A program made the position numbers and the translations under genes. Of a DNA stretch of 42,966 nucleotides, positions 5,349 to 20,443 are shown piece by piece. The DNA is taken from NCBI GenBank assembly GCA_903896615.1, contig CAITYM010000032.1:1-42966 (forward strand). The letters are read 5' to 3'. How positions within the stretch are numbered: position 1 is the first letter of the stretch; each line of letters opens with the position of its first letter. The stretch is from an uncultured Burkholderiales bacterium. Its GTDB lineage: Bacteria > Pseudomonadota > Gammaproteobacteria > Burkholderiales > Burkholderiaceae_C. The notes beneath the pieces are model-generated. The model saw only the letters and a list, made by a program, of their open reading frames with translations. It had not been told where the DNA came from and made no database searches.

Positions 5349-5439
5349 AAATGCTTACCAACAAGGCGGCCGCGGGCCTCTCCCACGTAGGCACTGGGTC
5401 TCAACAACTACAAGCACTCCCGCATGTAATTGACGATGT

Positions 5440-5595
5440 TGTTAGCCGGTATCCGGGCTTACAAACTTGACTCAATGACCTTCCCAGCATTTGCCAGTGG
5501 TAATTCGATTGAGCTAGTACTTGGGGGTACGTTTGCTTACCGTTGCGGGGACAGCACAGGTTAACTCTTTTGAGTCTCTGTTTCCCGTTTAACTG
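5440..5595 (-). promoter_or_regulatory. Cobalamin (AdoCbl-class) riboswitch in the btuB leader
   Basis: On the minus strand this leader carries the diagnostic cobalamin-aptamer blocks in order. They are a GGGAA-type element near 5580-5590, CTGTCCCCGCAACGGTAAG at about 5535-5553, CCACTGG followed by GGGAAGG in the peripheral stem (about 5485-5510), and the B12 box AAGCCCGGATACCGGC at 5445-5460. About 90 bases separate the B12 box from the btuB ATG. That stretch holds possible alternative pairings: minus-strand CTAACAAC (5438-5445) can pair with GTTGTTGAG (5400-5408), and a GC-rich run lies at 5365-5378 just before the start. There is no U-rich terminator, so translational control is more likely than attenuation. 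Boundaries are approximate. Confidence 0.93.
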
Positions 5596-5646
5596 TTTTT
5601 GAAGATTTCAAAAACGAGCACTATCAACAATTAAACTATATCACAC

Positions 5647-14839: not shown

Positions 14840-15250
14840 TCAAGATTTATTTACAGGCTCATTTGGCTTGCTGTCATTGCTTGTATGGGTGTCTTCAATG
14901 AACTCATCATTTAAAGAGCCATCCTCTAAGGCACGCGCTTCTTCTTCATCCCCCATTTTTCTTTGAGCCTTCGGATTTCGCTTTACCGCTTTGGCAACGA
15001 TCTCAACATAAAGTTGTGAATGATTGGCTTTAGCTGCCTCGTCTATGTGACCAATAACTGTGGAGAGATGGACTACTTCGCTAGACTCTTCTGCGAGTCC
15101 GAATTTGCAATCAAAATCCCAGTAATCGGTGTCAATTGGGAGGACCCTGCGGCGTTCACGTTTGAGGTATTTGCGTACCTCATGTTTGATGGAATCTAGG
15201 ACGCGGTCGGGCTTTTTACCCTCAATTTGGAGTTGGAAAGTTCTTTTCAT
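14840..15250 (-). CDS. DUF6172 family protein
   Basis: Small cytoplasmic protein of 136 residues and unknown function. The first 90 residues are the conserved part: a basic strand MKRTFQLQIEGKK, then VLDSIKHEVRKYLKRERRR, a DTDYWDFDCKFG segment and a second strand-helix unit around SQLYVEIVAKAVKRNPKAQ. The remainder is an acidic, Asn/Asp-rich tail. I match it to DUF6172, a family of short betaproteobacterial and gammaproteobacterial proteins, from memory of its sequence pattern. It is convergent with nadE and has no close operon partner. Confidence 0.68.
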   Translation of the reverse strand: MKRTFQLQIEGKKPDRVLDSIKHEVRKYLKRERRRVLPIDTDYWDFDCKFGLAEESSEVVHLSTVIGHIDEAAKANHSQLYVEIVAKAVKRNPKAQRKMGDEEEARALEDGSLNDEFIEDTHTSNDSKPNEPVNKS

Positions 15251-15568: not shown

Positions 15569-16759
15569 ATGAACGTAATACCCCCGTACTCTAGGTCTAC
15601 AAGCAATCCTATGCTCGCTCAGACCTTCATGTCCTCGCGTTCCCTGACCCAAGGGCTGGACATCATAAACATGGAGCCGAGTGCACCAGGGGTGCGTACC
15701 TCGGTGATTAATTCTTATTTGTCAAACTCTGGGAGCCAAAACGGTATCAATGTTTCAAATCCTAACGCTCTCATGGCAAGTCTGGAAACGGATATCAACT
15801 TAGTTCAAGGCAATAATGGTGGCGTCCCCGTAAATGCAGCGCCAAGTACAAATGCGGTTGCATTGATTCAACACACAAATCAAGACCCAACTGTTGTTTC
15901 CCCAAAAATTTATTCTGTAATTAAAAACTCAATTGCACAAGCATTGAATGATCAAGTTGCAAATTCACAATCAGTGGGTCCTGGTCCAAGTAGCAATGTA
16001 AATGCGCTGCTAACAGACCAAGTCTCGCCGGGTTCAATGGTTGACGCTGCTGGTGCTCAAATCAATTCCTTTGTGAATTCCTTGATATTTACTGTCCAGG
16101 CACAGACAAACCTGTCGCCGCAAGGAGATATTTTGGGGCGTGGTTTGATTGGTAACCCGAGCCCCTCAGAAAATATTCAACCCCTAGTAATGAACTCTAC
16201 AAACAACCTGGATCAATTGAGTTCTCAGACTGAGTTGGGTCAACCCCAATCCTCTGGACTCAATTTGAATTCCAATTCAAATATTACGGATGTTCATCCG
16301 ACCTACATGGGCTACCCATCAAGCGCAGACACCACCGGCAACTTTGCGCCAGCCCAAAGTGTTAGCAGTCAAGAAAATAGTGTTTTGGGCAATGCTGGGG
16401 GGCAAAACTCCTATACTGATTCGTCATCTCTTGAGCAACTCACGCAGCAACAAGAGACCGCACAAAACATATCAAACGTTCACGGCTGGGTTGTTGGCCG
16501 TATTTATTCGGGCATGCAATCTATGATTGAGATGCTCGCTGTGAATCAGTCTCAAAATGCGCAGCAGCCTGGGGGCGTTGCAGTGAGTACTTCTACCGCA
16601 GGCCTAGATTCACTTATTCAAAGTGCAAATAGTCTCTTTGCTTCAATGGGGTTGACTTCTACCGTAGCAGCTTCTACGCTACAAACAGCTTTGCAAGATA
16701 TACAACGCAACCTAATGAGCGCCCCTGCACAGGGACAGTGGATTAATGTAGTTGCATAA
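15569..16759 (+). CDS. Cysteine-free Ser/Asn/Gln-rich protein of unknown function
   Basis: I do not recognise this 396-residue protein. It is strongly biased: Ser, Asn, Gln, Ala and Gly dominate, there is no cysteine and I count only two lysines (both near residues 112-118). It has no N-terminal signal peptide and no membrane helix. Short amphipathic stretches at the N-terminus (SRSLTQGLDIIN) and the C-terminus (GLDSLIQSANSLFASMG, then TLQTALQDIQRNLM) flank a long disordered-looking middle. Such composition is common in secreted, non-Sec or filament-type surface proteins, but no export motif is visible. It is convergent with the four-gene operon 16826-20443. The start is uncertain; no Shine-Dalgarno is seen and in-frame ATGs occur at residues 15 and 21. 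Confidence 0.65.
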   Translation: MNVIPPYSRSTSNPMLAQTFMSSRSLTQGLDIINMEPSAPGVRTSVINSYLSNSGSQNGINVSNPNALMASLETDINLVQGNNGGVPVNAAPSTNAVALIQHTNQDPTVVSPKIYSVIKNSIAQALNDQVANSQSVGPGPSSNVNALLTDQVSPGSMVDAAGAQINSFVNSLIFTVQAQTNLSPQGDILGRGLIGNPSPSENIQPLVMNSTNNLDQLSSQTELGQPQSSGLNLNSNSNITDVHPTYMGYPSSADTTGNFAPAQSVSSQENSVLGNAGGQNSYTDSSSLEQLTQQQETAQNISNVHGWVVGRIYSGMQSMIEMLAVNQSQNAQQPGGVAVSTSTAGLDSLIQSANSLFASMGLTSTVAASTLQTALQDIQRNLMSAPAQGQWINVVA

Positions 16760-16825: not shown

Positions 16826-17605
16826 TCAAATTTTTTGAGTCCATTTCTGCGAGCACTTAGGACAGGTCATCTCCATATGAGCAAACTTTGTGCCCCTGCA
16901 GCGCTGTTTACATTTAGGGCAGGAGATGATTACTTTATTGTCTTGAATGACAGGTTTCTCAATTAGCTCTGAATTAATGAATTGAGGCGCACGAAGATCG
17001 TATTGATACGTTTCACCAAATGTAATTTGATAGCCAGGCATAGGCAATCCCACTTTGGATAAGTCGCCCGTTTTTATAAAGATATTAGACAATTTGTCCC
17101 CAATGCCTTCATCTGTTTGGTACCAAGCTCCTGAGTAACTGGGTTTAATGAGTGCTAGGGTTGCTGGGTCTTTAGTGATACGGTTTGCGTTGTCAATTAA
17201 AAACTTCAAATCTTTGATTTGATCCCGAACGATAAATTTGGACTGACTGTTGAAGAGATAAAAATAGTAGCCAAAGAATAGGCAGGCGTCCAGACTATTT
17301 CCAAATTGATACCACTTCAGGCAAAGTGCTCTTAGTAAATCAATATATGCTGTGATGTCAGAGTCAATTCCAATTAAATTATCATTTAACATTGCAACCC
17401 ACAATAGGTTCAATGCAGTCTCAAATCCGTTGTCCCTCCTAAGCCCTCCGTATTTGCCGTAGATATTTCTTTGTTCAATACTTCGGTAAGCAATGCTCAT
17501 CGTTCTAAAAAGCTCTGGAATAGAGGATGAAATATGAGGCAATTTTTCTTTAAATAGCTTCTCGTCTGATTTATTTACCACCGTATATTCAAATGGATAA
17601 GTCAT
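16826..17605 (-). CDS. Unknown protein with C-terminal zinc ribbon
   Basis: Not recognised by name. The 259-residue protein ends in a treble-clef or zinc-ribbon-like module with CPKC (229-232) and CPKC (248-251), separated by 15 residues, plus one extra Cys236. Residues 1-180 look helical and globular, with hydrophobic helices around 60-115 (LLWVAMLNDNLIG, CLFFGYYFYLF) that are too broken by polar residues to be clear membrane spans. No signal peptide is present. It is the last gene of a four-gene minus-strand operon and begins 21 bases after the J-domain gene. The ribbon may bind nucleic acid or a partner protein; function is unknown. Confidence 0.72.
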   Translation of the reverse strand: MTYPFEYTVVNKSDEKLFKEKLPHISSSIPELFRTMSIAYRSIEQRNIYGKYGGLRRDNGFETALNLLWVAMLNDNLIGIDSDITAYIDLLRALCLKWYQFGNSLDACLFFGYYFYLFNSQSKFIVRDQIKDLKFLIDNANRITKDPATLALIKPSYSGAWYQTDEGIGDKLSNIFIKTGDLSKVGLPMPGYQITFGETYQYDLRAPQFINSELIEKPVIQDNKVIISCPKCKQRCRGTKFAHMEMTCPKCSQKWTQKI

Positions 17606-17626
17606 AGATGTTGTGAATTCTTCAAT

Positions 17627-18172
17627 TTATCTGGTTAAATGATTGATAAGTTCGAGTTTAATTTTCTCAAAATTGACGATATGGCGTTTGTCGTCCTTCA
17701 TGTAAGAGTAGTTGTTAATGTATCCACTGGATATTTCAACTTTCAAAGAGAAGGTATTCTCGAATAAATTGATCAGCTGATACTCATCCATTTGGTTTTC
17801 ACGCAATTTTTTTAGAATATGATCAAATTCTGTTTTTCTTTCTTTGGTATCTGTCTTATGCTCTGCCTCGTTGTGTTCGCTTTTTGGGGGTTCGCTCGTA
17901 TCTGGAGTGCTATGGTGCGGGTGCTGCTTGGTCTTAGTAGGTTTCGATTTGGCACTTGCCTTTGACCACTTTAAATCGTATTCTTTTCTTCTGTGCTTGA
18001 AACCCAACACAGCGTAGGCTTCGTTTAATTCACTCATGATCCGATTGTGTTCGGCTTTATCAGCAGGGTGTTTGTCGGGATGATATTTTTGAGCTAAAGC
18101 TTTGTAAGCAGCCTTTATAACAACTTCATCAACCTCTCTTAGTAGTCCAAGTACTTGGTAGTGATCCTTCAT
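17627..18172 (-). CDS. J-domain (DnaJ-like) co-chaperone
   Basis: Predicted to stimulate an Hsp70 (DnaK) ATPase and recruit it to the neighbouring membrane proteins. Residues 3-68 form a complete J domain: DHYQVLGLL, AAYKALAQKYHPDKHP with the essential HPD at 31-33, and LNEAYAVLGFKHRRKEYD. The Gly/Phe and zinc-finger regions of true DnaJ are missing. Instead there is a charged, His/Lys/Pro-rich linker (70-115) and a unique C-terminal domain (115-181). It is thus a specialised class C J protein, not the housekeeping DnaJ. It sits 14 bases after the VWA-like gene. The client is likely encoded in the same operon, which is inference. Confidence 0.85.
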   Translation of the reverse strand: MKDHYQVLGLLREVDEVVIKAAYKALAQKYHPDKHPADKAEHNRIMSELNEAYAVLGFKHRRKEYDLKWSKASAKSKPTKTKQHPHHSTPDTSEPPKSEHNEAEHKTDTKERKTEFDHILKKLRENQMDEYQLINLFENTFSLKVEISSGYINNYSYMKDDKRHIVNFEKIKLELINHLTR

Positions 18173-18186
18173 AGTTTATAAATATA

Positions 18187-18990
18187 TTATCCTGGAAGAT
18201 TTGTGATTTCAAGAGATTTTGTATTAGCGCGTTTGAAGTAAGCATTCCAAAAATCAATAAACGCAGGACTTTGGTTTTTAATATTGTTATTTAGAAGTAT
18301 GATGTGAACGTCAACTGAGCTTAAATCAACCCAAAGCTTTTTGGCCATATAAGTAGCATCATATTTTTCAAAATTCGGGGTTGATCTGTACATATCTAAG
18401 GCAGTGCTAAATTGCATTAGATCTGATAGCACGTAAAGCTCTACGGGCCCCTGTGTTTTATGAGCCTGAATGGAGTTCAAATAAACCAGTTGGAGCATCT
18501 CAATGATCGGCGACTCTTTAGCGGAGTTAGCCGTCAATAGTTCAGTGGTTACCTTATCCAAGGGCTGGATAAATCCGTTGGTGTACTGGTTTCTTAGGGC
18601 CTTGGTATTTTGAGTAAATTCACTCTTGTCCTCACCAGTCCCTGGATTACAAAGCTCGATAAGCGGCTTTGTTTCAGCCTTGAAATCATCGCCCAAAACA
18701 AATACAGAGAGCATGTAGCCTACGGGTAGCTTTTCTACAATGTCTTTTGCAAAGTTGTCAAAAGCAGCTTTTTGTGCTTGGTTAAATGGGTCGGTTCTGT
18801 CTACCAACAAAACTTGATGTCCTAGCGGGCCTTTAGATGGACATAAGGTTGTTGGATCTAATGGCAGGGGGCGCTGCCCTAACCACCAAACTACTCCCCC
18901 AACGACAAAAGCAATAACCAAAATGAACCCGATACCCAAAACCAAGTGGTAGCGGGCTCTTTGTTGGGCTAATTTACTTTTGCGTCTCAT
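18187..18990 (-). CDS. Membrane-anchored VWA-like protein
   Basis: Unnamed 267-residue protein. A basic N-terminus and one membrane helix (residues 15-37, LVLGIGFILVIAFVV then WW) place the rest in the periplasm. The soluble part reads like a von Willebrand A-type Rossmann fold: HQVLLVDRTDPF (58-69) occupies the DxSxS position with Asp64 and Thr66, a Ser/Thr segment SPIIEMLQ follows (160-167), and ELYVLSDLMQFS (184-195) supplies the second acidic loop (Asp190), ending in a VDVHIILL strand. The metal site is therefore degenerate but plausible. I choose the ATG at 18990, seven bases after the previous stop; a TTG at 19032 would overlap the upstream gene by 35 bases. Confidence 0.72.
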   Translation of the reverse strand: MRRKSKLAQQRARYHLVLGIGFILVIAFVVGGVVWWLGQRPLPLDPTTLCPSKGPLGHQVLLVDRTDPFNQAQKAAFDNFAKDIVEKLPVGYMLSVFVLGDDFKAETKPLIELCNPGTGEDKSEFTQNTKALRNQYTNGFIQPLDKVTTELLTANSAKESPIIEMLQLVYLNSIQAHKTQGPVELYVLSDLMQFSTALDMYRSTPNFEKYDATYMAKKLWVDLSSVDVHIILLNNNIKNQSPAFIDFWNAYFKRANTKSLEITNLPG

Positions 18991-18997
18991 AACCAAT

Positions 18998-20443
18998 TTA
19001 GTAGTATCGGAGGTGGTTGAGTTGGGTAACAAATTTCTCGAAAACTTGATAAACCTCCTCGCGTTGTTTAGCGATCGTGCGCTCGTGATGCTTTATTAAT
19101 TCGTTTAGCTTTCCCATTAAAACTGTTTCGCGGTTTTGTTCAATCTTGGGCAAAGTAATGGGGTTCAAAGAGGGCATAGTGTTGAAATATGCAGGAATAA
19201 GGCCGTCCTCTCTGACTATTTCGTTCTCAAACCTGAACTTTCTTATAGTGGCGTAAAGAACAACCTCTGAGTCATTGAGCTTATCTTGATATTTTTTGAT
19301 AATCGATTTTTTAGAGTCTAGTAAGTTTTGTATAGAGAATAAAAGCTCATTGCAAGTATTAACTTGCTGATCTATGAAATCTAACTTTTCTTGCTTAAGT
19401 TCTTCAAGTTCAAAACGAATATCTTCATACTCCGACTCAAACTCCTCCTTCGCTGACTCAGTGCGTCTAAAAATACTTCCATACCCGGGGTATATATCAT
19501 CAATATACACGCCGTCAACAACTGCAGCAATTCCAAATCCAAGCGTTAACATGATTAAAAACCAAGAGGTTAAATCTTTAAATGTCCATAGGCTTGTTTG
19601 CATCATGCTCCAAGCGATTTGAGTAGGATTGTCAACAGACAGTGCCATTGCCTCTCGGATGTGGGCAATAGAGAAGGCCATGCCGCCTAAAAAGAAGAAT
19701 GCAATAATTAAACTTAAAATCCCAATGACTTTTCCGTAAATCTTGTTGTGGTTGAGCCAGTGCACCCCAATTTTTCCGATGAAAAAGCAGCCTGAAATAT
19801 TTATGAGAGCCAGTGACGCTGCATACACGAACCCACCAATTAGTCCTGTGCTTACGCCCTCAGAGAAAAAACTAGCGTTTAATGTTCCCTCTATTGCAAT
19901 CAGTATTAGCAGTAAGGTGTAGCGGAAAAATATTTGAGTCTTCTCAGGGTAATTGGCCTGACGCTTCAAATTATTCTCTTCCCTAAAAATCTCAAGCTCT
20001 TTGATGTTGGCGATGGCATTGGAGGCCAATCTTTTCAGCCAAGCGCCTTGAGTGTCCATTATTTGTCTGGCTTTACGTTCAAACTCCGCACTCAGACTTT
20101 GGGTCATGTACCTTTGATATTCATGTTCTTTATCGGTGAACTTAAGGTCTAATTCAGCAATCTCGTTCTCTGCATTTACCAGTAGCAGTTCTCTTTGAAC
20201 ATTTAAATGATGAAGCAGTTCCGTCTCTACGCTTGTTAATTCTTTTGCGTGAAACGCTGGCAATCCCATTTTGCCTAAACGTTTTGCTTCCTCATTAATT
20301 TTAAATTTGCGTGTGATCTCATCAATTTCGAAAGACATTAAATGAGGAGTGGCCTCAGAAAATCTGAATAGACCCTTGAACCAAGCCATTAAACCGGCTT
20401 GACTGCGTTTTTTATTTCTTTGCTTACTGCCAGGTCCAGCCAT
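18998..20443 (-). CDS. Coiled-coil membrane protein with four central helices, unknown
   Basis: Not recognised. The 481-residue protein has a basic N-terminus, a long helical and coiled-coil segment (about 40-170, rich in Glu, Lys and Leu heptads), four membrane helices (about 172-195, 202-228, 240-262 and 288-312), then a second coiled-coil region (about 328-385) and a helical C-terminus (445-478). Both ends should face the cytoplasm. This layout suggests a scaffold that assembles in the inner membrane. It is the first gene of the operon with the VWA-like, J-domain and zinc-ribbon genes and so probably defines the complex. No signal peptide and no catalytic motif are visible. Confidence 0.72.
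   Translation of the reverse strand: MAGPGSKQRNKKRSQAGLMAWFKGLFRFSEATPHLMSFEIDEITRKFKINEEAKRLGKMGLPAFHAKELTSVETELLHHLNVQRELLLVNAENEIAELDLKFTDKEHEYQRYMTQSLSAEFERKARQIMDTQGAWLKRLASNAIANIKELEIFREENNLKRQANYPEKTQIFFRYTLLLILIAIEGTLNASFFSEGVSTGLIGGFVYAASLALINISGCFFIGKIGVHWLNHNKIYGKVIGILSLIIAFFFLGGMAFSIAHIREAMALSVDNPTQIAWSMMQTSLWTFKDLTSWFLIMLTLGFGIAAVVDGVYIDDIYPGYGSIFRRTESAKEEFESEYEDIRFELEELKQEKLDFIDQQVNTCNELLFSIQNLLDSKKSIIKKYQDKLNDSEVVLYATIRKFRFENEIVREDGLIPAYFNTMPSLNPITLPKIEQNRETVLMGKLNELIKHHERTIAKQREEVYQVFEKFVTQLNHLRYY

Follow-up and report, generated by a model that had tools for sequence, protein, structure and literature searches.

Two described systems come closest to the locus examined here. 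Zorya consists of ZorA and ZorB together with ZorC/D or ZorE (PMC11890865), and the FtsZl1/vWA/OmpA/GTPase operons of Makarova and Koonin (2010, PMC2875224) encode a VWA protein alongside OmpA-type and membrane partners. We studied a 42,966-nucleotide stretch from an uncultured Burkholderiales bacterium (GenBank assembly GCA_903896615.1, contig CAITYM010000032.1; the whole stretch, which is contig C32 in an assembly of 3.18 Mb and 173 contigs, is called the window below), which carries four adjacent genes, g1 to g4, encoding a four-transmembrane (TM) protein, a protein with a predicted VWA fold, a J-domain protein and a zinc-ribbon protein. Comparison with 61 relatives from the same order and with more distant loci gives the conservation pattern of two modules, a g1–g2 core and a g3–g4 pair, not of one fixed four-gene operon, and the set is apparently a cell-envelope apparatus not described before; in the open-access literature (subscription papers and preprints being outside this scope) we found no description of it.

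The likeness to Zorya belongs to the distant relatives of g1–g2, whose operons appear to combine a long-tailed membrane gene of the MotA/ExbB-like type, a MotB-like gene and a nuclease and have defense genes as neighbors; their nuclease, however, is of the SNase type with a signal-like N-terminus and is neither ZorD nor ZorE. The window set differs further: it has no match to ZorA, ZorB, ZorC, ZorD or ZorE, its g1–g2 pair is absent from Zorya as described, and no stator of the distant type was found in the window genome. Membership of the window set in Zorya was rejected because the PADLOC 2.0.0 component models gave zero matches for g1–g4 at E ≤1 and because the stator profile (A10), which recovered both known carriers tested, found none among the 17 same-genus genomes that carry g1. 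The FtsZl1/vWA system, whose operons likewise set OmpA-type and membrane partners beside a VWA protein, was rejected as well: FtsZl1 (PF13809, Tubulin_2) is missing from 17 of 18 g1-positive genomes, and the single match (G061) lies on a contig other than that of its g1.

An earlier note, made from the sequence of the window alone, had described four same-strand genes separated by 7, 14 and 21 bases, and open reading frame (ORF) analysis returns exactly this arrangement on the minus strand (table 1). All four are real genes under purifying selection, because nonsynonymous differences from relatives L054 and L051 are few and synonymous ones many (proportions pN 0.08–0.20 and pS 0.73–0.96, the latter near saturation). 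The note had recognized none of the three non-J proteins, and the libraries agree: in Pfam, NCBIfam, PADLOC and PHROGs, nothing for g1, g2 or g4 passes a curated cut-off or has an E value better than 0.002 (PHROGs gave weak matches alone, the best being E 0.03 for g4), and the sole solid assignment within the set is the J domain of g3.

The note's proposal of a single four-gene complex did not survive the comparison of gene order across 57 loci (52 genomic loci found through two short g1 motifs plus five plasmid loci). There, g2 adjoins g1 in 54 loci spanning Pseudomonadota to Nitrospirota and Campylobacterota (a profile found 52 of them, and tblastn the other two, L026 and L028); the loci without it are L060, L093 and L069, the last on a contig that stops 184 bases beyond g1. 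By contrast, g3 adjoins g1 in only 17 of the 57 loci, 12 on the same strand and five divergent, all of them in betaproteobacterial metagenome-assembled genomes (MAGs); g4 accompanies g3 in 16 of these, the remaining locus being cut off by a contig end. In a further 15 loci, g2 is followed by a stator-type gene pair. Gene order is kept across many species of one group, but the check that the note had proposed, recurrence of the same four genes in distant genomes, turned out negative, because distant g1–g2 has another partner pair and the C-terminal domain (CTD) of g3 was found by its profile (A9) in none of 12 distant g1-positive genomes, against 21 of 37 same-genus genomes. Two relatives separate the modules or may do so: g3–g4 and g1–g2 lie on different contigs in G074, and both sit at contig ends in G073, where they may be adjacent.

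Within the genus of the window, proteins that combine a J domain with the CTD occur in 18 of 37 genomes (a count that includes G023 and G027, from genes cut by contig ends), namely in 16 of 17 genomes with g1 versus two of 20 without it (Fisher p 1.9e-7, uncorrected for phylogeny). Presence of g1 requires at least four changes on a recA tree (G001, G006 and G027, which lack a recA locus, and G029 and G035 are not on this tree), and a seven-species clade keeps g1–g2 vertically. In a quick tree of g1 (57 rows), whose long branches leave the deep order unsure, the 34 rows of the window-type lineages, all without a stator, group as one clade with a Shimodaira–Hasegawa-like approximate likelihood ratio test (SH-aLRT) value of 99, and the rows with J and zinc-ribbon genes fall within a 23-row sub-clade (SH-aLRT 100), on deep branches of which g3–g4 adjoins g1–g2 in two orientations; the 15 stator rows branch outside the window-type clade and do not form one clade. 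The simplest history would be that the stator was lost at the base of the betaproteobacterial branch and that g3–g4 became attached later.

The note's "four-helix coiled-coil" membrane protein is best read as a protein with four TM helices: hydropathy gives g1 four hydrophobic stretches (residues 170–188, 204–222, 239–257 and 291–309) between two long flanking regions, which are presumably cytoplasmic coiled coils. In the signature directly past TM4, D316, P319 and G320 are invariant in 31 of 31 rows, and D315, Y318, Y321 and G322 are kept in at least 90%. Homologous proteins number at least 68; they occur in 17 of the 61 relatives, every one from the genus of the window (17 of 37 same-genus genomes), and on 24 plasmid records from alphaproteobacteria (20–25% identity among the 20 matches listed). 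Identity of g1 as a MotA-type protein was rejected on a profile comparison with the stator third gene (probability 2.1%).

For g2, the structure model (predicted local distance difference test, pLDDT, 87.1) places a Rossmann-like VWA fold behind the TM stretch by fold comparison, so that g2 is, by this model, a VWA-fold protein, as the note had supposed. A VWA identity from sequence alone was rejected on profile results that include a PDB profile search in which all 14 matches had E >0.3 and one was a VWA protein by title; it was the fold model that settled the question, where sequence profiles did not. Four of the five residues of a metal ion-dependent adhesion site (MIDAS), D64, T66, S160 and D190, are kept in 29 of 29 rows (S or T at 66 and 160). 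In its fold and in most MIDAS residues, g2 resembles bacterial VWA proteins of the 4fx5 and BatA/BchD types; it differs in lacking a sequence-level VWA family match and the third MIDAS serine and in having two invariant cysteines, C50 just before the VWA domain and C114 within it.

The note's J protein and zinc ribbon also stand. With 62.1 bits to PF00226 (cut-off 27.8), g3 belongs to the J-domain proteins, and H31-P32-D33 is invariant in all 16 aligned rows. It shares this J domain with the DnaJ and CbpA types and differs from them in its small CTD, which other proteins of the genus share; Pfam shows the J domain alone, with no match to zinc-finger or DnaJ C-terminal domains, and a class A/B DnaJ was rejected on these absences and on the bacterial DnaJ equivalog (56 bits against a cut-off of 377). 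These other proteins include a 366-residue one of the window genome that ends in the CTD but has no J domain (L137, contig C172, 6475–7575 (−)) and one of 210 residues whose N-terminal part has hydrophobic stretches (L138, 5097–5729 (+)), from G003, which lacks g1. G012 and G026 each encode a second J protein (L135, L136), in which the C-terminal part is different and longer. Homologues of g4 occur in 14 of the 61 relatives; its paired zinc-ribbon cysteines near the C-terminus and C236 are invariant in 18 of 18 rows, and a search of solved structures returned one weak match in the zinc-ribbon range (E 0.64). Convergent with g4 lies a gene for a serine/asparagine/glutamine-rich (S/N/Q-rich) protein of 396 residues without a Pfam family, a possible client of g3; a homologue follows g4 in all seven genomes examined (the window and six relatives) and in G074 stays with g3–g4 although these sit apart from g1–g2. 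Beyond this convergent gene, L029 and L030 have a start resembling the DUF6172 protein that lies near the set in the window.

We tentatively favor a modular envelope-spanning apparatus in which a g1–g2 core serves exchangeable output modules, a reading that we hold to be possible but short of probable. The data support its gene order, homology, g1–g2 pairing, VWA fold, MIDAS residues, J domain and module exchange; the side of the topology, the ligand, the g1–g2 contact, DnaK recruitment, the docking role of the CTD and the purpose are parts that we infer. On this reading, a single helix would anchor g2 in the inner membrane, and its VWA domain would face the periplasm and use a metal at the MIDAS-type site to bind a ligand, either a protein or a component of the wall; g1, its partner, with both long ends in the cytoplasm, would pass the bound or unbound state inward. 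In distant bacteria, the output would be a stator pair of the MotAB/ZorAB-like type, often joined by a secreted-looking thermonuclease; in the lineage of the window it would be g3–g4, the J protein docking through its CTD and recruiting DnaK to remodel either the ends of g1 or a client bound to the zinc-ribbon protein. The purpose may be envelope surveillance, possibly anti-phage. Chaperone-assisted envelope assembly by the four genes, as the note had envisaged from their sequences, is also possible.

Several results weigh against the modular reading. Neither g3 nor a stator stands beside g1–g2 in 25 of the 57 loci, and neither module strictly requires the other, because g3–g4 is present without a g1 match in G011 and G027, and g1 without a CTD match in G031, G082 and G085. 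The co-occurrence evidence for a functional link between the modules is not independent of phylogeny. In six g1–g2 genomes (G005, G018, G020, G025, G028 and G033) the J–CTD gene is unlinked, but the recA tree joins these genomes in a single clade, and they count as one independent pair, for which reason we rejected them as independent evidence; across the four independent g1 pairs, too few for significance, the J protein agrees in 3.8 on average. As for g2, position 68, the fifth of the MIDAS, lacks conservation, being proline in 21 of 29 rows, so that the motif (DxSxS ... T ... D) is incomplete, and hhalign of g2 against VWA gave a probability of 2.0% (E 0.024) versus 95.8% for the positive control; at low stringency all three MIDAS loops fell in register, not significantly.

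A different account, which we consider rather unlikely, casts g1–g2 as sentinel in an anti-phage system that resembles Zorya and is undescribed. Its stator form would act through a nuclease and a MotAB-like motor, and the window form would be a derivative with a chaperone-type output. The stator operons speak for it. Their third gene (A10, 14 rows) keeps D69, Y72-Y73, G75-F76, T79, F104-G105, A107, S110-T111, G114 and R118 invariant, which we take to be the TM3–TM4 pattern of MotA/TolQ/ExbB; ZorA models match third genes at E 1e-6 to 1e-3, mostly within the long tail, and PDB profile matches include the ZorA chains 8vvn (1.5e-4) and 8qyd (0.0015), with unrelated coiled coils scoring higher. 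PF01618 (MotA_ExbB), however, matches only two of nine third genes tested, and neither match (E 9e-4, E 8.5e-3) reaches the cut-off. In the fourth gene (A11, 14 rows), a single TM stretch contains an invariant glutamate, E15; against ZorB models, L026 reaches 87 bits (ZorB2), L025 and L024 match weakly and L084, L088 and L089 not at all, and in alphaproteobacterial members this MotB-like gene carries an OmpA domain. An SNase-family (thermonuclease) gene lies inside or adjoins the cluster in at least seven of 15 stator loci, twice on the opposite strand; by eye, seven such sequences have a hydrophobic signal-like N-terminus, and the nuclease looks secreted. Next to the SNase gene of the stator-type cluster in Sinorhizobium fredii lies a DUF4041 protein (L027, 13932–15407 (−)), DUF4041 being the domain found in SNIPE-type nucleases.

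Surroundings divide the two forms. A PADLOC scan of 63 hand-picked neighbors from 14 stator loci and six other proteins (E ≤1e-10) matched 161 families. Ten neighbor proteins were scanned singly, and strong matches lie near four stator loci, all from named isolates: Hachiman HamB (8e-266) and HamA (9e-103) 1.5 kb upstream of g1 on the opposite strand, with an LmuB/mad3-like protein downstream (L090); mREase_IV/HEC-06 (2e-94; L085); PDC-S36 (1e-98; L084); and, directly upstream, PDC-M27C (5e-63; L086). Three neighbors (L086:2354, L084:6229 and L027:5703) had no PADLOC match at E ≤1e-20. In the genus of the window, where defense neighbors are rare, a scan of 85 of the 135 nonredundant neighbor ORFs from 13 loci revealed no comparable defense island: the best match was PDC-S01 in one protein (4e-62), followed by an AriA/OLD-like ATPase adjoining g1 in G006 (8e-30) and then weaker ones. 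The defense role that the note had entertained is suggested by the surroundings of distant relatives and not by those of the window. Some PADLOC models also catch general helicases, and the contrast is suggestive only; g1 and g2 themselves remain without a PADLOC match, and the vertical retention in the seven-species clade is unlike a labile defense gene.

On a housekeeping account, in our view unlikely, g1–g2 would tether the wall or outer membrane or keep watch on it, with the J/zinc-ribbon pair as a dedicated helper in assembly or quality control, and immunity would play no part. J proteins and VWA proteins commonly serve as assembly factors. In one clade (L042–L046, L048), g1–g2 occupies a fixed chromosomal place amid metabolic genes; in two Pelagibacter-type loci the pair is followed by a multi-TM protein read as PrsW-like (L099, 3715–4554; L100, 10317–11129 (+)), and in an Alteromonadales MAG (L096) it occurs with a glycine-zipper/SH3-like lipoprotein. 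Patchy presence in the genus with repeated change on the recA tree, differing chromosomal sites, plasmid copies in alphaproteobacteria and the defense neighbors of distant forms argue otherwise. That the two are unrelated accessory modules sharing a neighborhood in one lineage, g3–g4 having its own function, is doubtful: g3–g4 standing alone in G011 and G027 or divergent in five loci, the CTD on other proteins (L137, L138) and an S/N/Q-rich gene that tracks g3–g4 and not g1–g2 all favor it, but the two orientations of adjacency deep in the J/zinc-ribbon clade and the (uncorrected) co-occurrence do not.

We regard as improbable the boldest proposal, in which g1–g2 would form the sensing core of an apparatus for envelope immunity, widespread and so far undescribed: a VWA sentinel in the periplasm, mounted on g1 as a four-TM relay, would drive a Zorya-like stator and a periplasmic nuclease in most lineages, the motor having been swapped for the J/zinc-ribbon pair in the lineage of the window. 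The favored reading and its rivals overlap in part.

Coordinates are collected in table 1. The ATG start was used for g2; a longer ORF begins with a TTG at 19032, inside g1. Scans of the locus found promoters no better than in shuffles (9 versus 11.3 expected) and terminators near shuffle level (5 versus 3.8).

Table 1. Features of the g1–g4 locus and other elements of the window.
Feature	Position	Strand	Basis or remark
g1	18998..20443	−	481 aa ORF; inner-membrane protein
g1 membrane part, residues 170–309 (TM1–TM4)	19517..19936	−	hydropathy
g1 signature DDxYPGYG, residues 315–322	19478..19501	−	g1 alignment
g2	18187..18990	−	267 aa counted from ATG
g2 TM anchor, residues 16–34	18889..18945	−	hydropathy; helix 6–38 in structure model
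g2 VWA domain, residues 53–267	18190..18834	−	structure model, fold comparison
g3	17627..18172	−	181 aa J-domain protein
g3 J domain with HPD	17975..18166	−	PF00226 E 5.4e-17
g3 CTD, ~66 residues	17630..17827	−	profile A9
g4	16826..17605	−	259 aa; unnamed N-terminal domain and C-terminal zinc ribbon
g4 zinc ribbon C229xxC232 ... C248xxC251	16853..16921	−	alignment A7
S/N/Q-rich protein	15569..16759	+	
DUF6172 protein	14840..15250	−	PF19669 E 6e-30
Cobalamin riboswitch	5427..5640	−	74.7 bits (gathering score 31.5)

Whatever their function, g1 and g2 are clearly conserved families, unnamed in the libraries searched and paired across several phyla, and the switch between stator and chaperone partners within one branch is a natural experiment that should tell the sensing protein from the acting one. 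If the envelope-immunity proposal were true, the window would encode a chaperone-coupled membrane sentinel, with a DnaK-recruiting J protein and a zinc-ribbon client holder; we know of no earlier sentinel of this kind. Should the stator-type operons prove to be anti-phage, the few membrane-powered immune systems would gain a periplasmic VWA sensor; should they not, the operons would represent an unrecognized envelope-maintenance machine.

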